Virus record (IMG/VR): IMGVR_UViG_3300025030_000204
Location: 1 to 42,879 of that record
Length of the DNA stretch: 42,879 nucleotides
Reading direction: 5' to 3' (one strand)
Origin: a virus
The notes under the pieces are model-generated. The model did not search any database. It saw only the letters and a list, made by a program, of their open reading frames with translations, and had not been told where the DNA came from. Below, in pieces: positions 2,350 to 40,599 of the stretch. Positions within the stretch are counted from its first letter, which is position 1, and each line of letters begins with the position of its first letter. The translations under genes and the position numbers were made by a program.

Positions 2350-2380
2350 TTGACTTTTTAATTTATTTTATTTATATTTG
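2350..2380 (+). promoter_or_regulatory. Host-type promoter for the tmRNA
   Basis: TTGAC at 2350-2354 and TATATTTG at 2373-2380 match the Bacteroidetes -33/-7 pattern. The only candidate product is the structured leader and tmRNA downstream. Confidence 0.7.
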
Positions 2381-2571: not shown

Positions 2572-2982
2572 GGGGATGACAGGCATTGACGTGATCAAAG
2601 TAGTCATAAAATATGTGTTTGGCATTCTGGAAAAGACAGAAGAATCGCTTAAATGGCGAATCAAACAAAGGACTCTCAAATGAGATTGCAAGGTTCTTGG
2701 TGTCAGATGAAAATCTGATTTTCAAAAATCAAGAAATTGAATTTGAAATTGCTTAACAAGGTTAAGTCAATTATATTGGAAACAGGATAGAGTTAAACTG
2801 AATAATCGGGAACAGATTTTAACTGAACATGTTTGTATAATCCAAACAATAAAATAAATCCTGATTAGTTTAGGGTAAAAGTTTGGGAACGATTCTTTAA
2901 AAATTGAACAAAAAATAACACTAAAAAAATATTTTATGTTGAAAGATTAACGGACCCGGTTTTCGAATTACCGGCATCTCCA
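2572..2982 (+). ncRNA. ssrA: tmRNA (SsrA) encoded by the phage
   Basis: The 5' end reads GGGGATGACAGGCATTGACG, the tmRNA signature. The 3' end has the T arm (CCGGT, TTCGAAT, ACCGG) and CATCTCC (2975-2981), which pairs over seven bases with GGGGATG, giving the tRNA-like domain. A is the discriminator, followed by CT, so CCA must be added. Role: rescue of stalled ribosomes by adding a tag. The tag frame probably resumes at GGC-GAA (2655), the start used in Bacteroides tags. It then stays open for 33 codons to TAA at 2754, beginning GESNKGLSNEIA and ending EIEFEIA. Usual tags are about 9-15 residues ending in ALAA-like sequence. A perfect hairpin with a GAAA loop lies in the frame at 2703-2718. 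Length (about 411 nt) is a little above normal. Confidence 0.87.
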
Positions 2983-4275: not shown

Positions 4276-4306
4276 TTGGATATGTCATTTATTTTACTTA
4301 CCTTTG
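4276..4306 (+). promoter_or_regulatory. Host-type promoter
   Basis: TTG at 4276-4278 and TACCTTTG at 4299-4306, with the extended context GGATATGTCATTTATTTTAC between them that recurs at the minus-strand promoters near 14608, 16276, 28568 and 28866. It drives the 66-residue gene at 4338. Confidence 0.75.
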
Positions 4307-6777: not shown

Positions 6778-7470
6778 TTAATTTAATAATTCAAAAACTT
6801 CTTTTATTCCTTCACTAGCTTTTTTATTAATATAAGTAATTTCCATTCCAATTTTACTTAAACTTTTAACTGGGTTTGGATCAATAAAAAATACTTCACA
6901 AGATAATTTTATATAAGTTAACATTTGAAAACAATAATGGATAAATAAAGAAGTTCCAATTATTATTAAATAATCACATTTTTCAATTGTTTTATATGAT
7001 TCTTCAATATTACAAGGATATTCCCCAAACCAAACAACATGAGGTCTTAATTGTGAGCCATTTTCACATTTATCACCCAACTTTATATCATTATAACCAC
7101 AATCATATATTAAATCTTCATCTGATGAGCTTTGAGATTTTGTAAGTTCCCCATGAATGTGAATAACATTTGAAGAGCCACCCCTTTCATGTAAATTATC
7201 AACATTTTGAGTTATCACGGTAACATCAAAATTATTTTCAAGTTCTGCAATTAATTTATGCGCCAGATTTGGTTTTACATTTTCCAGTTGCCTTCTTCTT
7301 TCGTTATAAAAATCTAAAACTTTTTGTTTATCTTTGTGCCATGCACTTATTGTTGCAACATCATCTATTTTATGGTTTAACCATAAACCATTTTTTCCTG
7401 TCCTGAATGTTGGGATGCCAGATTCCTCACTTACGCCCGCACCAGTAAAAACAACTATTTTCTTTTTCAT
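6778..7470 (-). CDS. Sir2-family NAD-dependent protein deacylase
   Basis: A 230-residue sirtuin that would remove acyl groups from lysine using NAD. The NAD site is GAGVSEESGIPTFR (residues 10-23), then TQNVDNLHERGGS, the catalytic His in HIHGEL, RPHVVWFGE, and IIIGTSL near the C-terminus. FYNERRRQL carries the Tyr and Arg that in E. coli CobB and SIRT5 read succinyl or malonyl lysine. The structural zinc cysteines are mostly missing (only YDCGYND and DKCENG), as in a zinc-less subgroup. It is the only complete minus-strand gene in its neighbourhood and is divergent from 7532, with a palindromic TATTTATAAATA at 7491-7502 between them. It may modify host proteins or NAD metabolism; that is inference. 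Confidence 0.9.
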   Translation of the reverse strand: MKKKIVVFTGAGVSEESGIPTFRTGKNGLWLNHKIDDVATISAWHKDKQKVLDFYNERRRQLENVKPNLAHKLIAELENNFDVTVITQNVDNLHERGGSSNVIHIHGELTKSQSSSDEDLIYDCGYNDIKLGDKCENGSQLRPHVVWFGEYPCNIEESYKTIEKCDYLIIIGTSLFIHYCFQMLTYIKLSCEVFFIDPNPVKSLSKIGMEITYINKKASEGIKEVFELLN

Positions 7471-16389: not shown

Positions 16390-17505
16390 ATGTTAAAAGC
16401 ATATAAATATAGAATTTATCCAACAAAAGAACAAAAAATTCTGATAGAAAAACATTTTGGATGCTGCCGGCTCGTTTTTAATCTTGCATTGGAAATAAAG
16501 CAATATGCTTATAAAACACAGCATAAATATTTATCTTCTTTTGATTTATGTTATCAACTTCCTGATTTGAAAAAAGAATTCACATGGATTAATGAAATTG
16601 ATAGTCAGGCATTACAGTCAAGCATTAAAAAACTTGATATCGCCTTTAAGAATTTTTTAAAACACGGAGCAGGCTTTCCAAAGTATAAATCAAAGGACAA
16701 TAAACAAAGTTTTCAATGCCCCAATAATACACGCAGGATAAACTGGAAGGAAAATACTTTGGATTTGCCTAAAATAAAAGGGATTCCTATTGTATTATCA
16801 AGAACATTTAAGGGAAAAATAAAAACAATTACTATAAGCCGGACACCAACATATAAGTATTTTGCTTCCATTTTGGTAGATACAAATATTGTTATTCCAG
16901 AGAAACCACAAATAACAGAAAACAAAACATTAGGTATTGATTTAGGTTTGAAAGATTTTGCAATATTGAGCAATGGGGAGAAATTTGCTAACCCTAAATT
17001 TTTGAAAAACAATATTGAACGATTAAAAGTTTTACAAAGAAGAGCAAGCAAGAAAATGAAGGGAAGTCAAAACAAGAAGAAAGCAAATTTAAGAGTTGCT
17101 ATTAAACATGAAAATATAAAAAATAAACGGGATGACTTTCTGCACAAATTGTCTTCACGACTAATCTGCGAGAGCCAAGCAGATACATTTGTGTTTGAAA
17201 ATTTGTCATCTCAAAATATGATGGCTAATCATAATCTGGCACAAGCAATCAGCGATGTGAGTTGGGCCAAACTCGTTGAGATGATGAAATATAAAGGGGA
17301 ATGGTATGGAAAAAATATTTTATTCATTGACCGATTTGCGCCAAGCAGCAAGACTTGTTCTAATTGCAATTTTGTTAATGATAAATTAACATTATCAGAT
17401 AGAGATTGGCAATGTATTGTATGTGGCGTAACCCATGACCGGGACATCAATGCAGCAAAAAATATAAAGTTCATGGGATTAAAGAAAGTAAAGATATGGG
17501 ATTAA
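16390..17505 (+). CDS. tnpB: TnpB RNA-guided nuclease (IS200/IS605-type element)
   Basis: A 371-residue TnpB with intact active site: GIDLGLKDF (Asp about 184), VFENLS (Glu 270), a four-cysteine zinc ribbon (CSNC about 323-326, CIVC about 347-350) and HDRDINAAKNI. The N-terminus (KAYKYRIYPTKEQKILIEKH) is also typical. TnpB uses an RNA made from its own 3' end to cut DNA lacking the element. No TnpA is nearby. It sits just downstream of a late-type promoter. Its C-terminal frame ends early; the usual family tail (ELPTLAGTMKQE) is found in the next frame, so a frameshift or recombination removed it. A perfect 12-base palindrome GCCAACATTGGC (17546-17557) could be part of the right end. Confidence 0.9.
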   Translation: MLKAYKYRIYPTKEQKILIEKHFGCCRLVFNLALEIKQYAYKTQHKYLSSFDLCYQLPDLKKEFTWINEIDSQALQSSIKKLDIAFKNFLKHGAGFPKYKSKDNKQSFQCPNNTRRINWKENTLDLPKIKGIPIVLSRTFKGKIKTITISRTPTYKYFASILVDTNIVIPEKPQITENKTLGIDLGLKDFAILSNGEKFANPKFLKNNIERLKVLQRRASKKMKGSQNKKKANLRVAIKHENIKNKRDDFLHKLSSRLICESQADTFVFENLSSQNMMANHNLAQAISDVSWAKLVEMMKYKGEWYGKNILFIDRFAPSSKTCSNCNFVNDKLTLSDRDWQCIVCGVTHDRDINAAKNIKFMGLKKVKIWD

Positions 17506-18888: not shown

Positions 18889-21837
18889 GTGGGTAGGACA
18901 TCAAAAGAAAATAGAATTGTTGAATTTGCAAAATGTATAAAAGACCCATCATATTATGCTGAAACTTTTTGTCAGACATTTGATATGACAAAAGATAAAA
19001 ATGTCCCATTTAAAATGTTTAGAAGACAAAGGGAATTAGTACAAAATTGTATTAATAATAGATATAATATTATTAAAAAACCAAGGCAAGCTGGGGTTAC
19101 AACATCCATTTCTTTATTTGCTGCATGTTATATGATGTTTCAAGAGAAAAGAAAAGTTATGATTGTTGCCAACAAACAGGACATGGCATTTGAAATGTTA
19201 AAAAAAATAAAAGAATTCATACATTTTGCTCCTAGTTGGATGGGAATTAATTTAACAAGAATTGCTCAGGGTATATTAGAATTAAATAATGGTAGTCTTG
19301 TTAAGGCATTTGCAACTTCAGAAGATGCTTTGAGGGGATTTACTCCAACTTTACTAATTATTGATGAGGCAAGTAATATTAGAGATGGTGCTGAATTTTG
19401 GGGTGCTGCACACCCTTCACTTGCAAGCGGGGGGAAATGTATTATATGCAGTACTCCAAGGGGAATGGACGAATTTTATTGGGCAATATATGATGCAGCT
19501 TTAAATAATAAAAGTAATTTTTATATAAATGAATTTAAGTGGTATGAAGATCCAAGATATAATGATAAATTAAAATGGACAAAGGGTGATTTAATTATTG
19601 ATACGTGGTTAAAAACAAAAGTAAAAGATGAAGATTACGAAGTATTTGAAAGATTAGAAGAAAAAGGATTTGAGCCAACTTCTCCCTGGTTTGAAGATCA
19701 ATGCAGGGAATTAAATTATGATAAAAGACGAATTTCACAAGAATTGTTGGGAAAATTTATTGGTTCTGGCGATAATGTTATTGATGAAAAAGATATTAAT
19801 TTTCAAGAAAAAGAAAATGTAATGCCACCGATAAGAAGTGAGGGATTTGATGGAAATGTATGGATTTGGAAAGATCCAATTCCAGATCATCAGTATATTT
19901 TGGGATGCTTACCACCTGGAGAAAAAGTATTGACAAACGAAGGATTAAAAAATATAGAGGATATAAAAATTGATAATTTACTTATAGATGAAAATGGAAA
20001 TTTTACTAAAATAAAAAATATTCAAACAACAAAAAATATAAATGATGAATTATATGAATTTAAATTAAGTAATGTTTGTAGAAAAACAATTTTTACTAGA
20101 AATCATCCAATATTATCAAGTATAAATACCGAACTAAAAAGAAATTGGAAAAGGAAGCATCCAGAACATAAATTTGGAAAACGATATTGGGATTTTAATT
20201 TCAATTTTATTAATTCAGAAAATTTAAAAATTAATGATTGGATCAAATATCCTAATTTATATTATAATAAGGATTTAACTGATAATGAAATATTATCAAA
20301 ATGGGATAAATATAAAAATATTGGTAGAACTGATTTTAAAATTAAAAACCCATTATTAGAAAAAGACTTTTGGTGGTATGTTGGGATATGGTTGGCCGAG
20401 GGGTGGTATTTAAAATCTAAAGCAGTTGAAAAAAGTAAAGGTTTATCAACTTGTCATAATATAAATGAAAAAATATTTGCATATAAAATAAAATTTTTGT
20501 GTGAAAAAATATTTAATAGAAAAGTAAATATAAGAGATAGAGAATCTGTAGTATATACACAATTTAACTCATTACAATTATATAGTTTTTTTCTTGATAA
20601 TTTTAGTGAATACGCCCATAATAAAAAATTACCTGAATGGGTAAAATATTTACCTAAAAAATATAAAATAGAAATTTTAAAAGGATATTTTGATGGTGAT
20701 GGGTGTTGGTCAAAAACATATAAAAACAATAAAGGTTTTTCTTTTATAGCATTTGTCAGTGTTTCTTTAGAATTATTAGAGGGAATTCAAGATCTATTAT
20801 TTTCATTAGGAATTATTTCCGCATTAAAAATATTGAGAAAGGGGGGGTTTTGTATTATTGAAAATAGAAAATTTAAAACTAAAATAACATACGACTTAAC
20901 TTTAGCACATTATGATAGTTTACAATTAGTTAATATGTTTAATATTAAAAAATATAATCATGTAAATATTAATGATTTTGAAATTAGAAATGAAAGAATT
21001 ATTTCTGGTACTTTAATCAGTAAAGATAATAAATGGATTTATCACAAAATAAAAGAAATAAATAAAATACCTTATAATGGAGATGTTTATAATTTTGAAA
21101 CAGAATCTCACACTTTTTTATGTAAAAATATAACAACACATAATTGTGATGTATCAAGGGGTGATAGTAGTGATTTTAGTACAATTTGTATAATAGATTT
21201 ACATGCTGGAGAACAGGTAGTGGAATATCAGGGAAAAATAACACCTGATTTTTTTGGGGAACTTATATATGATTATGCAAATAAGTATCAAGCATATACA
21301 ATAATTGATGTAACTGGTGGAATGGGGGTTGCCCCAATTCTAAAATTAATAGATATGGGATTTGATAAAAAATTACTTCATTATGATAATCCCAAATCCA
21401 GATTAATACAAGAAAAGTTGGGCAGATTTAAAAAAGGAGATAAATTACCAGGATTTAATATAGGAGCAAATAGAAATATGACCATAATGGAATTTGAAAG
21501 ACAAGTTAGAATGGGTGAGATAAAAATTAGATCAAAAAGATTAATAAATGAAATGAAAACTTTTATTTGGAAAAATGTTGGACCAAATGTCAGCAGACCA
21601 GATCATATTTCTGGAAAAAATGATGACCTTATTTGGAGTATATCAATGCCACTTTTTATTTCTCAAACAACATTTAAAAATCTTAAAAGATATAATGAAC
21701 AAACAAAAGCAATGTTGAGTAGCATGACATCTGATTCAAATCAATATAAGGATACAATAACACCACAAACAGGATATATGGGGAGAAATGATACAAAATG
21801 GGCATATCAAGAATATGGGTGGTTATTTAAAAAATAA
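18889..21837 (+). CDS. Terminase large subunit (T4 gp17-like) with an intein
   Basis: A 982-residue precursor starting at GTG directly after the previous stop. The extein is about 569 residues, close to T4 gp17. The ATPase half has Walker A at 64-72 (KKPRQAGVTT), Walker B near 157-164 (LLIIDEAS) and a CSTPRGMDEFYW coupling motif. The nuclease half has the RNase H-like CDVSRGDSSDFS, IIDVTGGMG and a DHISGKNDDLIW C-terminal motif with late Asp residues. It packages DNA into proheads by ATP hydrolysis and cuts concatemers. Residues 340-752 are an intein placed one residue before the first catalytic Asp of the nuclease, so the precursor should be inactive until splicing. Confidence 0.93.
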   Translation: MGRTSKENRIVEFAKCIKDPSYYAETFCQTFDMTKDKNVPFKMFRRQRELVQNCINNRYNIIKKPRQAGVTTSISLFAACYMMFQEKRKVMIVANKQDMAFEMLKKIKEFIHFAPSWMGINLTRIAQGILELNNGSLVKAFATSEDALRGFTPTLLIIDEASNIRDGAEFWGAAHPSLASGGKCIICSTPRGMDEFYWAIYDAALNNKSNFYINEFKWYEDPRYNDKLKWTKGDLIIDTWLKTKVKDEDYEVFERLEEKGFEPTSPWFEDQCRELNYDKRRISQELLGKFIGSGDNVIDEKDINFQEKENVMPPIRSEGFDGNVWIWKDPIPDHQYILGCLPPGEKVLTNEGLKNIEDIKIDNLLIDENGNFTKIKNIQTTKNINDELYEFKLSNVCRKTIFTRNHPILSSINTELKRNWKRKHPEHKFGKRYWDFNFNFINSENLKINDWIKYPNLYYNKDLTDNEILSKWDKYKNIGRTDFKIKNPLLEKDFWWYVGIWLAEGWYLKSKAVEKSKGLSTCHNINEKIFAYKIKFLCEKIFNRKVNIRDRESVVYTQFNSLQLYSFFLDNFSEYAHNKKLPEWVKYLPKKYKIEILKGYFDGDGCWSKTYKNNKGFSFIAFVSVSLELLEGIQDLLFSLGIISALKILRKGGFCIIENRKFKTKITYDLTLAHYDSLQLVNMFNIKKYNHVNINDFEIRNERIISGTLISKDNKWIYHKIKEINKIPYNGDVYNFETESHTFLCKNITTHNCDVSRGDSSDFSTICIIDLHAGEQVVEYQGKITPDFFGELIYDYANKYQAYTIIDVTGGMGVAPILKLIDMGFDKKLLHYDNPKSRLIQEKLGRFKKGDKLPGFNIGANRNMTIMEFERQVRMGEIKIRSKRLINEMKTFIWKNVGPNVSRPDHISGKNDDLIWSISMPLFISQTTFKNLKRYNEQTKAMLSSMTSDSNQYKDTITPQTGYMGRNDTKWAYQEYGWLFKK
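19906..21144 (+). other. Intein in terminase with LAGLIDADG endonuclease
   Basis: A 413-residue insert. It starts with Cys (CLPPGEKVLTNEGLKNIEDI), has block B TRNHPIL and ends THN followed by Cys (the +1 residue). Both LAGLIDADG motifs of a homing endonuclease are present: VGIWLAEGW and LKGYFDGDG. The tail (VYNFETESHTFLCKNITTHN) is a normal block F/G. It splits the nuclease active-site motif CDVSRGD of terminase. Confidence 0.93.
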
Positions 21838-22688: not shown

Positions 22689-25600
22689 ATGGCAGAACAA
22701 CAAAAAACTACTTTATATCAACGACTTACAAAACTCTTTGGAACAGGTGGCCAACCTGTAATTGATAAAAAACCTTCAATATCAGCAAAAGAATTATTGA
22801 CAGCGACTTCTGCCGAAGAACTGATGTTAAAAAAATTAGCAGCCCAGCAATCACAATATTTGGGAAATCAATTTGAGAAAATAACATCCAATTTATATCA
22901 ACAATCAGTTTATTATGAAACAACAAGACTTGCAAGTTATGCGGATTTTACGGCCATGGAACATACCCCAGAAATTGCGGCCACTTTAGATCTTGTATCT
23001 GAAGAAAGCTGTCTAGCTGGGAATAGTACTATAAGATTATTAGATGGAACTAACCCAACAATAAAAAAATTATATAAAGAAAATAAAAAAAATTTTTGGA
23101 TATATTCTTATGATACTAATAATAATAAATTTATTCCATCTAAAGCAGAGAAAGTAATTTATAAAGGCATTCAAGATATATATTTGATTAAATTAGACGA
23201 TGATACAAAAATAAAATGTACTGGTAATCATAAATGGTTAGGGAAAGATAATAAGTGGATAGAAACACATGATTTATATAAAGGATATTTTTTCATTAAT
23301 CATAAGGTTATTTCTATAAAATATATGGGAAAAGAGAAAGTATATGATGTTGTTAATTCTGGTAAATTTAATAATTTTGGGGTTAAGTGTAATAGTGGGA
23401 TGATTATAAGTCATAATTGTACGCTCTCAGAATTTGGTAAAATGTTACAAGTATTCTCTGATAGTAAAAGAGTTAAAACAATTCTTGAAAATTTATTTTA
23501 TAAAACTTTAGATATTAACATTAATTTACCAGCATGGACAAGAAATACATGTTTATATGGCGATAATTTTATTTATCTTAAATCAGAAATTGGAAAGGGA
23601 ATTGTTGGGGTTAAACAACTTCCAAATATTGAAATAAGAAGAGAAGAGAGTTCGATTACTGATCAGAAAAATATGATTAGATTTATTTGGCAAGGAAAAA
23701 GTATGGAATTCACGGCCTGGCAAATTGCTCATTTTAGATTATTGGGGGACGATAGAAAATTACCTTACGGAAATTCTTTTTTAGAAAAAGTAAGGAAGAT
23801 ATGGAAAATGTTGATATTAGCAGAAGATGCAATGCTTGTCTATAGAATAACAAGAGCACCTGAAAGGCGTGTATTTAAAATTGATGTTGGAAACTTAGAT
23901 GATAAAGATGTTGAGCCGTATATTCAAAGAGTTGCTCAAAAATTTAAAAGACAGCCGCAAGCTGAAAATACTGGTAATTTTACAGGACAAGTAGATATGA
24001 GATATCGAACACTTCCAGTATGGAAAAATACTCCAATCCCATTATTGGATGGTAGAACAATAACAATAGAAGAATTATCAAAGGAATATGAAGAAGGAAA
24101 ATATAATGAGGTCTATTCTATAAAAGATAATACACATGAAATTGTTCCTGGAAAAGTTATTTGGTGTGGTAGGAATTATAAAGCAAATAAATTAATTAAA
24201 ATTTGGTTGGATAACAAAACATGGATAATGTCTGCACCAGAACATCCATTTATTTTAAGAGATGGTTCACATAGTAGAGCAGATAAATTATGTTCTGGTG
24301 ATAAATTAATGCCATTTAGACATGTTAAAATTAAAATAAAATATACAGAAGAAATTTATGAACCAGATGATGTATATTGTATGACTGTTGTTGGACCAAA
24401 TGGAGAAAATAATAGACATAATTTTGCTGTTTGCTCTCTTAATAAAGATGAAAACTATACGAGAAAGGGTGTATTTGTTAAGAATAGCACGGATGAAGAT
24501 TTTTTCTTACCAACAAGACAAGGTGGAGGAGATACAGAAATTGATACATTACCTGGTGCAAGCAATTTATGTCTTTCATTAGATACAAAAATTCCTCTAT
24601 TAGATGGTAGAACATTAAAATTAAAAGAAATTATCGAAGAGTATAAAAATAATAAAGATTTATGGGTTTATAGTTGTAATCCAAATACTGGTGAAATTAT
24701 TCCAGGGATCATTTCATGGGCGGGAATTACAAGAAAAAATGCTCATGTTTTAAAAATTACGTTAGACAACGGAAAAGAGATTATATCAACACCGGATCAT
24801 AAATTTTTAACAAGGGATGGACTAAAAAAAGAAGCAAAAGATTTAGAAATAAATGAATCTTTGATGCCGTTTCATAGAAAAAAAGAAAAAATAAGTAAAA
24901 ATTCTAGTGACTATGAAATGATTTGGGATAATTCAAAACAAAAATGGATTTTTATTCATAGAATGGTTGGTAGTTATATGAAAGATAAAAATTTACATAA
25001 TGAATTAATACATAATAATAAATTTATAAATGAAAATAAAAATATTATTCATCATAACAATATGAACCGATTTTGCAATAATCCTAGCAATTTATATTTT
25101 ATGAGTAGAAATGATCATATAGATCTTCACTGTGATTTTAATAATAATTTATTAGAGTGGAATAAAAATCCAATTAATTTAAAACAAAAAGGAAAATTAA
25201 TAAGTAAAACAAAATCAGATCCAGAACGTAAAAAAATATATTCAAAAAACGCTAAAAAATTATGGGAAAATAAAGAATATAAAAATAAAGTATTTAGCAA
25301 ACCACAAAAAATTATATTTACTGATAAGTTATATTCAATATTTTTTGATACTTTTAAATTATATGGCAGAAGTGATTTAACTCTTGAAAAATTAAATTCT
25401 AATAAAATCTTTATGCATGAATTTATATTGTCAAATTCAAATATTCGTAGCTCGATGACCAATTTATCAGAATTTACTCATAATCATGTAGATAAAATGG
25501 TTAAAGAAAAAGGATATAAAAATTATCGAGAATGGGTTAAAAAAACTTCTGATAATTTGGGATATAAAAATGTTAATTCTTGGAGATATTATATTGCTAA

Positions 25601-26636
25601 AGAAAATAAAACAGGAAAATATACTACTCATAGATTTTTAGAACAAGATTACTATAATCATAAAATTACTAAAATTGAATGGTTGGAAGAAAAAATTGAT
25701 ACTGGAACAATTACCGTAGATGGAGAACATAAATATCATAATTTTCATACTTTTGCAGTAGAATCTGGGGTGTTTATATATAATTCTGAAATTGCAGATA
25801 TAGAATATATCCAGCGTAAATTATTCACAGCAATGAGAGTTCCAAAGGCATTTCTTGGTTTTGAGGAAGCAATTGGTGAAGGAAAAAACTTGGCACTTCA
25901 AGATATAAGATTTGCTCGTACAATTAATCGTATTCAACAATCAATGATTCAGGAATTAAATAAAATCGCCATTATCCATTTATATATGTTAGGATTTGAA
26001 GAGGAACTTGACAATTTTACTTTAACACTAAATTCCCCATCAACACAGGCAGAGATGTTAAAGATTGAACAGTGGAAAGAAAAAGTATTATTATATAAGG
26101 ATTTGGTATCATTAAATGATACAGGATTTGCTGCAACGTCAATGACATGGGCCAAAAAGAATATTCTTGGTTTCTCTGATGATGAAATTATATTGGATCT
26201 TAAACAACAAAGAGTGGAAAAGGCTGCAGGAAAAGAAAATGAAGCGCCAGAACAAATTATTCATACAGGATTATTTGATGCTTTGGATAAACGTTATCAA
26301 CAAAAACCAGGGGAAGAAGCACCAGAAGGTGGTGAAGGTGGCGCACCTGGCGAATTACCAGGTGTTGGTGGAATGGGTGGGGGTGAAGAATTACAACCAC
26401 CAGGTGGAGGGCCAGGAGGTGGTGGAATGCCAGAACTTCCTGAATTAACTGAAGAAAATAAAATTAATATATTGGAAAGTGAAGATAAGGAACAAGATTC
26501 AAAATATAAAATATTGAATGATGATTCTAAAGTATTAAATGAAGATTTAAAAACAATGTTTGAATCTTTGGATGAAACGTTAAGTGAAAATAAAGAGATT
26601 ATTATAAAAAAAATTGAAGATGATGAAAAAGAGTAA
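22689..26636 (+). CDS. Portal protein (T4 gp20-like) with three inteins
   Basis: A 1315-residue precursor; removing the inteins leaves about 619 residues. The extein shows T4 portal features: YYETTRLASYADFTAMEHTP, DLVSEES/CTLSEFGKMLQVFSD, APERRVFKIDVGNL, STDEDFFLPTRQGGGDTEID, TLPGASNL/SEIADIEYIQRK, LFTAMRVPKAFLGFEEAIGE and KNLALQDIRFARTINRIQQS. It forms the dodecameric DNA channel at one capsid vertex and docks the terminase and neck. The C-terminal part has a Gly/Pro-rich tract (GGGPGGGGMPELPE) and an acidic helix, longer than in T4. Three separate inteins sit at residues 108-243, about 445-599, and 628-1032; at least two of the sites are in well-conserved motifs. Missing splicing of any one should block head assembly. 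Confidence 0.93.
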   Translation: MAEQQKTTLYQRLTKLFGTGGQPVIDKKPSISAKELLTATSAEELMLKKLAAQQSQYLGNQFEKITSNLYQQSVYYETTRLASYADFTAMEHTPEIAATLDLVSEESCLAGNSTIRLLDGTNPTIKKLYKENKKNFWIYSYDTNNNKFIPSKAEKVIYKGIQDIYLIKLDDDTKIKCTGNHKWLGKDNKWIETHDLYKGYFFINHKVISIKYMGKEKVYDVVNSGKFNNFGVKCNSGMIISHNCTLSEFGKMLQVFSDSKRVKTILENLFYKTLDININLPAWTRNTCLYGDNFIYLKSEIGKGIVGVKQLPNIEIRREESSITDQKNMIRFIWQGKSMEFTAWQIAHFRLLGDDRKLPYGNSFLEKVRKIWKMLILAEDAMLVYRITRAPERRVFKIDVGNLDDKDVEPYIQRVAQKFKRQPQAENTGNFTGQVDMRYRTLPVWKNTPIPLLDGRTITIEELSKEYEEGKYNEVYSIKDNTHEIVPGKVIWCGRNYKANKLIKIWLDNKTWIMSAPEHPFILRDGSHSRADKLCSGDKLMPFRHVKIKIKYTEEIYEPDDVYCMTVVGPNGENNRHNFAVCSLNKDENYTRKGVFVKNSTDEDFFLPTRQGGGDTEIDTLPGASNLCLSLDTKIPLLDGRTLKLKEIIEEYKNNKDLWVYSCNPNTGEIIPGIISWAGITRKNAHVLKITLDNGKEIISTPDHKFLTRDGLKKEAKDLEINESLMPFHRKKEKISKNSSDYEMIWDNSKQKWIFIHRMVGSYMKDKNLHNELIHNNKFINENKNIIHHNNMNRFCNNPSNLYFMSRNDHIDLHCDFNNNLLEWNKNPINLKQKGKLISKTKSDPERKKIYSKNAKKLWENKEYKNKVFSKPQKIIFTDKLYSIFFDTFKLYGRSDLTLEKLNSNKIFMHEFILSNSNIRSSMTNLSEFTHNHVDKMVKEKGYKNYREWVKKTSDNLGYKNVNSWRYYIAKENKTGKYTTHRFLEQDYYNHKITKIEWLEEKIDTGTITVDGEHKYHNFHTFAVESGVFIYNSEIADIEYIQRKLFTAMRVPKAFLGFEEAIGEGKNLALQDIRFARTINRIQQSMIQELNKIAIIHLYMLGFEEELDNFTLTLNSPSTQAEMLKIEQWKEKVLLYKDLVSLNDTGFAATSMTWAKKNILGFSDDEIILDLKQQRVEKAAGKENEAPEQIIHTGLFDALDKRYQQKPGEEAPEGGEGGAPGELPGVGGMGGGEELQPPGGGPGGGGMPELPELTEENKINILESEDKEQDSKYKILNDDSKVLNEDLKTMFESLDETLSENKEIIIKKIEDDEKE
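23010..23417 (+). other. Portal intein 1 (mini-intein, 136 residues)
   Basis: Starts with Cys (CLAGNSTIRLLDGTNPTIKK), block B KCTGNHKWLG, block F VYDVVNSGKFNNFGV, ends IISHN before Cys. No endonuclease domain is present, so it is a splicing-only mini-intein with a class 1 arrangement. Confidence 0.93.
24021..24485 (+). other. Portal intein 2, lacking a canonical first residue (about 155 residues)
   Basis: Hint-type blocks are clear: TPIPLLDGRTITIEELSKEY, SAPEHPFILRDG (block B, Ala in place of Thr before xxH), DDVYCMTVVGPNGENNRHNF (block F) and KGVFVKN before Ser. No Cys, Ser or Thr lies at the expected start; the sequence there is LPVWKNTPI. Block F has Cys at the usual Asp position (VYCMTV), as in class 3 inteins that use that Cys as nucleophile. 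The N-terminal junction is uncertain by a few residues (start set at Trp). The penultimate residue is Lys, not His. Confidence 0.8.
24570..25784 (+). other. Portal intein 3 with HNH endonuclease (405 residues)
   Basis: Starts with Cys (CLSLDTKIPLLDGRTLKLKE), block B STPDHKFLTRDG, ends GVFIYN before Ser. The middle has an HNH-type core, IIHHNNMNRFCNNPSNLYFM then SRNDHIDLH, and a DNA-binding segment. The penultimate residue is Tyr rather than His. It interrupts the conserved LPGxxN loop of portal. Confidence 0.92.
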
Positions 26637-26936: not shown

Positions 26937-28154
26937 ATGCAACTTGTTGAACAACATTTAATCAAAAATACATCAGAATCATTTAAGGAATGTGAAGATG
27001 TTTGTTTTAAAACAAAAAACTTATACAATTATTCTTTATATCTAATCAGATAAGCATATATTAAAGAAAATAAAAATATTATTTTTGATTTATATCATCA
27101 TATAAAGAAACATGAATCTTATAGCGCCTTACCAAGGAAAGTTTCATCCAATGTTTTGTTAATGGTACAGAAGAATTTTAAATCATTTTTCAAAGCATTA
27201 ACATTATATCAAAAAAACCCAAATAAATTTAAAGGAAGACCTGGTTTACCAAAATATTTGGATAAACAAAAGGGAAGATACATTGCTTGGTTTACAAATC
27301 AAGCCGTATCAAAAAAAGTATTTAAAAAAACAGGAAAAATTAAACTTTCACAATGTAATATAGAATTTAAAACAAAATTAAAATCTTTTGAGGAAATTGA
27401 TTGTGTCAGAATTGTCCCAAAAAATAATCACCATGTAATTGAGGTGGTTTATACAATAGTAACACCAGAAAAATTAACGGATAATAACAAATATGCAGCA
27501 ATTGATTTGGGTGTGAATAATTTAGCAACGATTGTATCAAATGTTAAAAAATTTAAACCATTAATTATAAATGGAAAACCATTAAAATCCATTAATCAGT
27601 TTTACAATAAAAAGAAAGCACATTTGCAATCTGTTAATGAAATAAGACATAAAATAAAAACAAGCAGACAAGTACAGAAACTTGATTTAAAAAGACAAAA
27701 TAAAATCAATCATTATCTTCATGTTTCCAGCAAATTAATTGTTAACATTCTCAAAGAAAATAATATTAATACTTTGATTATAGGGAAAAATGATAATTGG
27801 AAACAAGAGGTGAATATTGGAACAAAAAATAATCAGAATTTTGTCAGCATACCACACAGTAGATTTATAAATTTTATCAATTATAAATGCGAAAAAGAAG
27901 GTATAAATGTTATAACTAAAAATGAAAATTATACATCTAAATGTTCCTTTTTGGATTTGGAAACGATCCGAAAGCATAAAATGTATAAAGGAAAAAGAAT
28001 CAAAAGGGGTTTATTTATTTCTTCAGAAGGAAGAAAAATAAATGCTGATGTGAATGGTAGTTATAATATGTTAATAAAAGTAATTCCAAACGTCTTTGAC
28101 AATGGAATAGAGGGTGTCGGAATTCATCCAAGGGTCATAAAAATCCTGAAGTGA
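26937..28154 (+). pseudogene. TnpB-family gene with an in-frame stop codon
   Basis: From ATG 26937 the frame reads MQLVEQHLIKNTSESFKECE through LYLIR, then TAA, then AYIKENKNI and on to 28154. The N-terminus resembles the intact paralogue at 39370-40599 (MQLVERHIRINDKAIED), so the stop (CAA to TAA would restore Gln) breaks a real gene; ORF from ATG 27156 is only a 332-residue remnant. The RuvC Asp (AAIDLGVNNLATI) and NADVNGSYN are present. The usual second acidic residue is replaced (LIIGKNDNWKQE), and the zinc ribbon is reduced to TSKCSF, as in the 39370 protein. Confidence 0.75.
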
Positions 28155-38999: not shown

Positions 39000-39030
39000 T
39001 TGACTTTTTAGAATATTTTATTTATCTTTG
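39000..39030 (+). promoter_or_regulatory. Host-type promoter of mini-ORF cassette C
   Basis: TTGAC at 39000-39004 and TATCTTTG at 39023-39030. A TATTTATA box also lies at 39031-39038. Confidence 0.7.
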
Positions 39031-39369: not shown

Positions 39370-40599
39370 TCAAACATTACATTTGAGTTCAAATGATTTT
39401 ACAAATTCAACTTTGTATGGGTTAAACCCTAACCCTATATTCCTTATGTTACTTATGAATTTTTCACATTCAGGAATTACTTTTGATTTTAACATTATTC
39501 CAATTGCACCATTAACATCAGCATTTATTGTTTTGCCAATACTACTTAAAAATAAACCACGCTTTATTCTTTTGCCAAGATAAATTGCTTGTTTTTGTAT
39601 CGGTTCAAATGCCAAATGGTCGCATTTACTGGTATAACTTTCTTCCTGCTCAACAAGTTTTATGCTGTTGAGTTCTAACTTATATTTTATTTTATCTATA
39701 AGTTTGGCATGAGGGATAGAAACAAAATTCTGGTTATTACGGCTACCAATATTTATTTTCTTCTTCCAATGTTCATTTTTACCGATAACAACTGTCCCAA
39801 TATTATACTTTAAACAGTATTTAAGAATGAAATCGCCTACCTGGTGCATTGCATTTTCTATCTTGTTATTCCTGTCAAAAGTTAATTTATTTATTCTGTT
39901 TGACGTCCCTTTATTACCAACATAACTCATTAACTTGGCTCGCTTTTTATTAAAATACGCATTGATGGATTTTAATCCTCTACCGTTGATAATGAAAGGC
40001 TTATTACCGACATTATCTATTGCTGTGATAAGATTGTTTAATCCCAAATCAATGCTTAATACATTTTCTTCTTTTATTTTTTCATGTTTTACCTCCTTTT
40101 TTTCATAGACAACTTCTATTACAAAACAAGTTGCTTGTGGAATTATTCTCACTTGTGATATATTATCTACTTTTGTTTTTAATGGTTGAATATTTGCTTG
40201 TTTTGGAAAATGTATAAGTCCCCCTTTTAAATTAACTTGCTGATTAGTGAAAATGCAAATAGAATATCCAGCCTTATCTTTGTATTTTGGTTGCTTAGGG
40301 TTTCCTTTAAATTTGCTTGGGCATTTTTTATATTCTTTTAATGCTTTGAAATATGACTTCCAGTTCTTAAAAAGTAATTTTATTATTTGCTGCGATGTTT
40401 GTGCCGGCAATGCCCTATAATCTTCCTGGTTAAATTCAGCAAGCAATTTAGATAATTCATATTCCTCAAATTTCTGTATATTACCAAAAAATGCTTGCCG
40501 TTTGTGATAATTACAAAAATTATACAATCTGGCTGATTTAAAACAAATATCCTCTATTGCTTTATCGTTTATCCTAATATGTCGCTCTACGAGTTGCAT
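39370..40599 (-). CDS. TnpB-family protein with altered active site
   Basis: A 409-residue relative of TnpB. The first RuvC Asp is present (LSIDLGLNNLI) and so is the last (NADVNGAIGI). The usual RuvC-II Glu motif (V/F-E-N/D-L) reads TVVIGKNEHWKKKINIG. The zinc ribbon is reduced to TSKCDHLAF and LFLSSIGKT, without the second Cys pair. So it is either a TnpB with a rearranged catalytic site or a nuclease-dead form. The pseudogene at 26937 is a close paralogue. Its 3' end lies 20 bases from the 3' end of tRNA-Phe. On the minus strand a TATTTATA (40636-40629) lies about 30 bases upstream. No tnpA is visible. Confidence 0.85.
   Translation of the reverse strand: MQLVERHIRINDKAIEDICFKSARLYNFCNYHKRQAFFGNIQKFEEYELSKLLAEFNQEDYRALPAQTSQQIIKLLFKNWKSYFKALKEYKKCPSKFKGNPKQPKYKDKAGYSICIFTNQQVNLKGGLIHFPKQANIQPLKTKVDNISQVRIIPQATCFVIEVVYEKKEVKHEKIKEENVLSIDLGLNNLITAIDNVGNKPFIINGRGLKSINAYFNKKRAKLMSYVGNKGTSNRINKLTFDRNNKIENAMHQVGDFILKYCLKYNIGTVVIGKNEHWKKKINIGSRNNQNFVSIPHAKLIDKIKYKLELNSIKLVEQEESYTSKCDHLAFEPIQKQAIYLGKRIKRGLFLSSIGKTINADVNGAIGIMLKSKVIPECEKFISNIRNIGLGFNPYKVEFVKSFELKCNV

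Follow-up and report, generated by a model that had tools for sequence, protein, structure and literature searches.

General features of the phage and the tmRNA locus

The window, i.e. the whole analyzed stretch of viral DNA (an IMG/VR record of 42,879 bases), contains a candidate tmRNA gene at positions 2572-2982 (plus strand), with a tag reading frame of 33 codons inside it. The gene set of the window is T4-like and includes genes for an SbcC-like subunit, a T4-type portal, terminase and a major head protein; the phage is a T4-like jumbo phage. The portal gene (22689-26636) contains three intein splicing-domain stretches, and the gene for the terminase large subunit (18889-21837) contains a LAGLIDADG intein. 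The phage also encodes a Sir2-family protein (6778-7470, minus strand) and has three TnpB/OrfB_IS605-type genes (16390-17505, 27156-28154 and 39370-40599) with no obvious adjoining TnpA.

The host of the phage probably belongs to the Bacteroidota, as suggested by the enrichment of promoter-like sites of the form TTG-N19-21-TAnnTTTG, of which 17 were found in the window versus 6.6 expected (maximum among 100 shuffles – 13). One Bacteroidota-type site of this kind, TTG-N20-TATATTTG (2350-2380, plus strand), identified by its match to the consensus, is the probable promoter of the tmRNA gene, and the tRNA cluster at 39000 is preceded by a site of the same shape. A putative boxA-like element, GTTCTTTGA (2406-2414), is the sole GTTCTTT[GA]A on the plus strand of the window. 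Similar GTTCTTTAAAA sites lie closely upstream of many tmRNA genes of related phages. A second promoter-like motif, of the form TTGGAAATGTCATTTATTTTACTTACCTTTG, differs from the TTGACTTTTT form preceding the tmRNA and the tRNA cluster, and is repeated at positions 4276, 4551 and 5033 (plus strand) and 14638, 16306, 28598 and 28896 (minus strand). A scan for intrinsic terminators 3′ of the tmRNA found none. The same tmRNA sequence occurs in two further contigs, which otherwise show 1 and 26 SNPs relative to the window, so it is not an error of a single assembly.

Structure of the tmRNA

The gene is of full length up to the discriminator A73, the CCA end is not encoded, and the two halves of the RNA stand in the standard 5′ to 3′ order, i.e. 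they are not permuted (two-piece). Both ends of the tRNA-like domain lie where the initial annotation had placed them: the acceptor stem strand GGGGATG (2572-2578) forms 7/7 pairs with CATCTCC (2975-2981), which is followed by the discriminator A (2982). These pairs include G3-U70, the alanine identity pair. The T arm (CCGGT/ACCGG; 2956-2974) has a stem with 5/5 bp paired, and the TTCGAAT that had been read as its loop is present, but it lies inside a loop of 9 nt, TTTCGAATT, and not the usual 7 nt. Helix H2 is perfect, with all 9 nt of ATAAAATAT (2606-2614) complementary to ATATTTTAT (2929-2937). A candidate hairpin at the PK1 position, TTCTG-gaaaaga-CAGAA (2625-2641), was distinguished on the basis of sequence and folding. 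The whole RNA outfolds all 100 shuffled sequences (z = -4.2).

In a covariance search (cmscan, permissive filters), Rfam model RF00023 matched over positions 1-374 with an E value of 4.8e-5, though the score of 17.7 bits does not reach the gathering score of 47. ARAGORN did not call the gene. The 5′ motif GGGGATGACNGGNATTGAC was found in 21 IMG/VR stretches, and all 21 are tmRNA 5′ ends, several of them permuted, as judged by eye and with ARAGORN (by eye alone for L100 and L092). Searches for a nearer relative, with blastn and tblastn in INPHARED and pattern scans of IMG/VR, returned only identical copies or members of other families. On these sequence data, we take the candidate at 2572-2982 to be a real tmRNA gene.

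The 9-nt T loop makes it possible that the RNA is decaying, i.e. that a former short tag of the GESN... type lost its stop codon and degron and the molecule is drifting toward a pseudogene; the score below the gathering threshold and the failure of ARAGORN to detect the gene are in keeping with this. Against decay stand the acceptor stem, T stem and H2, all without a mismatch, the fold z-score, the retained promoter-like site, and the identity of the tmRNA across contigs with up to 26 SNPs between them in other places. We consider decay unlikely.

The tag reading frame

The resume codon of RF00023 (GCa) aligned to GGC at positions 2655-2657, the codon chosen in the initial annotation, and the surrounding TGGCGAA is indeed common to Bacteroidota tmRNAs. 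The predicted frame (2655-2756, plus strand; GGC GAA TCA AAC ... GAA ATT GCT TAA) comprises 33 codons and a TAA stop at 2754, and encodes GESNKGLSNEIARFLVSDENLIFKNQEIEFEIA, with the C terminus EIEFEIA. The ALAA-type ending is therefore missing, as had been noticed earlier. The C-terminal LAA (or xAA) of the ClpX-type ssrA degron is replaced by EIA, and neither the model alignment nor a search of all three frames of the tmRNA produced a short tag ending in AA elsewhere. In first-order Markov simulations of this tmRNA, a frame stayed open over 33 codons or longer with a probability of 0.10 (9.9%), so the frame by itself is weak evidence, and this chance is a further point in favor of decay.

Three small hairpins are predicted in or at the end of the frame: TCTC-AAAT-GAGA (2674-2685), TCAGAT-GAAA-ATCTGA with a GNRA loop (2703-2718), and CTTAAC-AAG-GTTAAG (2752-2766), which contains the tag stop codon and occupies an H5-like position. 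The second of these had been singled out in the initial annotation; it is real, but ordinary in kind, as related long-tag frames hold small hairpins too. These hairpins would fit a different explanation, in which the extra frame is kept as RNA structure and not as a peptide, the insert replacing helix 5 and pseudoknots.

Comparison with host tags

For comparison, 60 Bacteroidota tmRNA loci were used as a host control; these were the best-scoring loci, so the sample is not random. Among the 59 tags called by ARAGORN, 57 have 8-10 residues and all 57 of these end in AA, while the two longer calls resemble miscalls. GESNYALAA was seen twice, and the GESN start of the window tag therefore looks host-like. 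The window tmRNA shares with the standard one-piece Bacteroidota tmRNA (RF00023; GENNYALAA, GESNYALAA and other tags) the tRNA-like domain, H2, the TGGCGAA resume context, the GESN start and the lack of an anticodon arm. It differs in its tag of 33 codons (versus 8-10), which ends in EIA (versus LAA or MAA), in the 9-nt T loop and in its low covariance score.

No SmpB gene was identified in 30 phage records, so the use of host SmpB was assumed. A phage-encoded ClpP was considered as a general explanation and rejected: it is present in only 3 of the 30 records and absent from the two other contigs of the window phage. ClpX reads the LAA end of the tag. The loss of this end need not mean that degradation is lost, since the ssrA tag of Mesoplasma florum (AANKNEENTNEVPTFMLNAGQANYAFA; 27 aa, ending in YAFA) has no LAA and is still a target of Lon (PMC9097571). 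The M. florum and window tags are both long and without the LAA end, but the former is bacterial and the sequences are unrelated. Proteases acting on tmRNA tags, and tag lengths of 8-35 residues, have been documented (PMC8012679).

Long tags in phages related by the capsid protein

At least 80 relatives of the major head protein of the window phage were found in IMG/VR; identity is approximately 70% for most of them, and many come from jumbo genomes. When 49 records with a relative of this protein were searched with Rfam, 14 proved to carry a full-length tmRNA. Eleven of the 14 tags have 27-32 codons, two are short (GEALAMAA), and one, of 28 codons (L118), is divergent and ends in FAIVV. The motif EDxMSxxT is common to 11 of these 14 tags, which were chosen without any search pattern. 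The long tags of this type, designated class A, have the form AEDIMSIPTSLTRG...SVFA... and 27-32 codons (e.g. AEDIMSIPTSLTRGKSVFARNTELAFAA); further tmRNAs of this type were added by a pattern scan. Several class A tags have no AA at the end and terminate in AIA (L114 and identical contigs), SIA, FAAS, FVA, LVA, FAV or AFA. The tmRNAs of L114, L115 and L135 combine tags ending in AIA or SIA with an 8-nt T loop, AATCGATG, in parallel to the window. Long tags are thus the rule in related phages, which further argues against decay.

In a capsid tree the phages with class A tags fall within one clade, with the window and the short-tag phages outside it; the exact place of the window is unsure because its branch is long. 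No gene neighborhood common to the tmRNA of the window and those of its relatives was found. The tag EDIMSIPTS had no exact-pattern match among the genomes of 84,980 bacterial species, so there is no sign of a host origin.

Codon variation indicates that class A tags are peptides under purifying selection. In 12 tags of equal length pN/pS was 0.27, and the variable columns fell mostly on third codon positions (8, 10 and 23 for the first, second and third positions, respectively). Codons 1-14 had a ratio of 0.08 versus 0.43 for codons 15-28, the former value being inflated because the search pattern covered part of that interval. Small hairpins occur in the tag regions too, and some of the changes within them are paired (A-U to G-C; C-G to U-A). 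The alifold energy of these regions, -10.2 versus -4.0 ± 1.8 for synonymous shuffles (of which 1 in 200 was equally low), suggests that RNA structure is a second constraint. As the sole reason for keeping the frame, RNA structure appears rather improbable, given that class A variation is concentrated at third codon positions and that the frames stay open though tag lengths differ.

The window and the class A tmRNAs found in related jumbo phages (L105-L115, among others) are alike in capsid kinship, long frame, small hairpins and some endings without AA. They differ in that class A tags have the EDIMSIPTSLTRG core and another resume context, both missing from the window. The window tag was tried as a relative of class A and rejected, since it has no EDxMSxPTS core and its profile score of 0.5 was equalled by 406 of 5000 shuffles. 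By eye its end resembles SVFARNTELAFAA; homology to class A or to the second family of long tags, described below, is not significant.

Long tags in cultured phages

The IMG/VR scan with the 5′ motif revealed a second family, class B, with tags of 30-38 codons around ANMNKVFSL (e.g. GKNNSRVVALGANAQIEANMNKVFSLLREEVAVAA, among the matches listed). At least 36 unique long tags have the common ANM core; their resume codons were read from the sequence context and not from the model. Among the matches listed, other long tags end in TVA, LVA, VLA or AVA, and MVA likewise belongs to the non-AA ends of long phage tags (besides AIA, FAV, VGV and EIA).

Searches of INPHARED (tblastn and blastn) identified class B tmRNAs in the cultured phages Fpv2, phi38:1, Calle_1 and phi14:2. 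The Flavobacterium psychrophilum phage Fpv2 and its kin have the tag GNTNNSVVSLEDNAQVEANMNMAFSLIREDVAVAA, the Cellulophaga phages phi38:1 and Calle_1 have GNNTNAVNAQIEANMEAVNAILNLEVAVGV, with a non-AA end (AVGV in phi38:1), and the crAss-like Cellulophaga phage phi14:2 has GNDTDNTQLKANMTVVHNILNGSDALIGSSVQKLAMVA. Rfam confirmed the tmRNAs of Fpv2 (58.2 bits) and Calle_1 (86.6 bits). The tmRNA is annotated in Calle_1 but not in phi38:1 (L295) or Fpv2 (L293); the annotation of phi38:1 places an antisense ORF (gp041) across the long-tag tmRNA. By sequence, then, long tags, some of them without AA, recur in related and cultured phages of Bacteroidota.

Class B tmRNAs share with the window the resume context TTTAAAnGG, long tags (30-38 versus 33 codons), an end without AA (in phi38:1) and, where known, Bacteroidota hosts, whereas the ANM core is confined to class B, which also has higher Rfam scores. 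The window tag was rejected as a class B member: an ANMxxVF-type core is missing, and its score of -0.6 was equalled by 2583 of 5000 shuffles. Placed outside both long-tag families, it would have followed the same trend independently; its being unlike any other tag also speaks for decay.

Two other forms of tmRNA were seen on phage contigs. The T loop is interrupted in L098, L168 and L297; Rfam detects a group I intron in both L168 and L297, and the interruption in L098 is similar. L297 is the crAss-like phage cr128_1. Permuted (two-piece) tmRNAs are present in L088, L090 and L093 (confirmed with RF04321), as well as in L085/L101, L092 and L096, and some of their tags end in AVA.

Phage tmRNAs, including two-piece ones, have been reported before (PMC9004378), and a tmRNA database holds 79 phage sequences, with a modal tag length of 10 aa (PMC11915505). 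Like that of the window, the tmRNAs of mycobacteriophages, Bacillus phage G and Melnitz are phage-encoded (PMC4131195, PMC9004378, PMC11915505). In the part of the literature on phage tmRNAs covered here, long tags conserved among phages were not found to be described. A long tag ascribed to mycobacteriophage Bxz1 had no match in INPHARED and was left out of the comparison. The mycobacteriophage DS6A has a tmRNA consisting of the TLD only, for which a decoy role has been proposed (PMC4131195); by this precedent, the phage RNA would titrate SmpB or block host tmRNA, with the tag being irrelevant. DS6A has no tag frame, however, whereas the window keeps an open frame with its stop in a hairpin and the tags of relatives are under selection at the peptide level, which makes a decoy very unlikely here.

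Proposed function of the extended tag

We hypothesize, with a probability of about two in three, that the window encodes a working phage tmRNA, which uses host SmpB for ribosome rescue and adds a rewritten tag whose carriers are most likely degraded by another route. For a working tmRNA we counted the whole-length Rfam match, the intact stems, the fold z-score, the promoter-like site and the long tags in relatives; counted against it were the fact that only identical copies are known, the 9-nt T loop, the score below the gathering threshold, the 10% chance of the frame and the lack of family kinship of the tag. The RNA would be transcribed from its own promoter, charged with alanine, bound by host SmpB and would enter stalled ribosomes during infection. 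Translation would resume at GGC (2655), add Ala and 33 residues ending in EIEFEIA, and terminate at the TAA at 2754. The host-like GESN start would be followed by a phage extension that replaces the host YALAA degron. Tagged proteins would most likely still be degraded, with the hydrophobic interior or the C terminus seen by another protease instead of C-terminal LAA being seen by ClpX; Lon in Mesoplasma is a precedent for such a route. By sequence comparison, two further families of phage tmRNAs, whose long tags are conserved, show the same kind of change.

In our analysis degradation by another route is favored, followed by a stabilizing or re-routing role, in which rescue occurs without degradation, the interior of the tag binds a phage or host factor, and a degradation ending is no longer selected. 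That role is a tentative alternative. It would account for long tags ending in AIA, SIA, FAV, FAAS, FVA, IVV, VGV, MVA, LVA or TVA, and for the interior being the most conserved part of the tag (see the class A ratios and EDxMSxxT above). The conservation of the interior is, however, inflated by the search pattern, no binding partner is known, and the majority of long tags keep AA after a hydrophobic residue, which suggests a role for proteolysis in most cases.

Descriptions of the tmRNA tag generally present it as a short and almost universal signal for degradation, with a length of 8-35 residues, mostly 10. A broader interpretation, which we regard as speculative, is that Bacteroidota phages repeatedly turned tags into peptides of 28-38 residues in which the conserved interior, and not an AA end, is the signal; the host quality tag would thereby be overwritten, and stalled proteins moved away from ClpXP or the tag given a job of its own. 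Cultured phages (phi38:1 and Fpv2) carry long-tag tmRNAs and the proteomes of phi38:1 infection are public (MassIVE MSV000098485/PXD066074; PMC13288928), so the added tag can be tested now. Across several phage lineages long tags are conserved, in some cases with no AA at the end, which suggests that phages rewrite the protein-rescue signal of their hosts.
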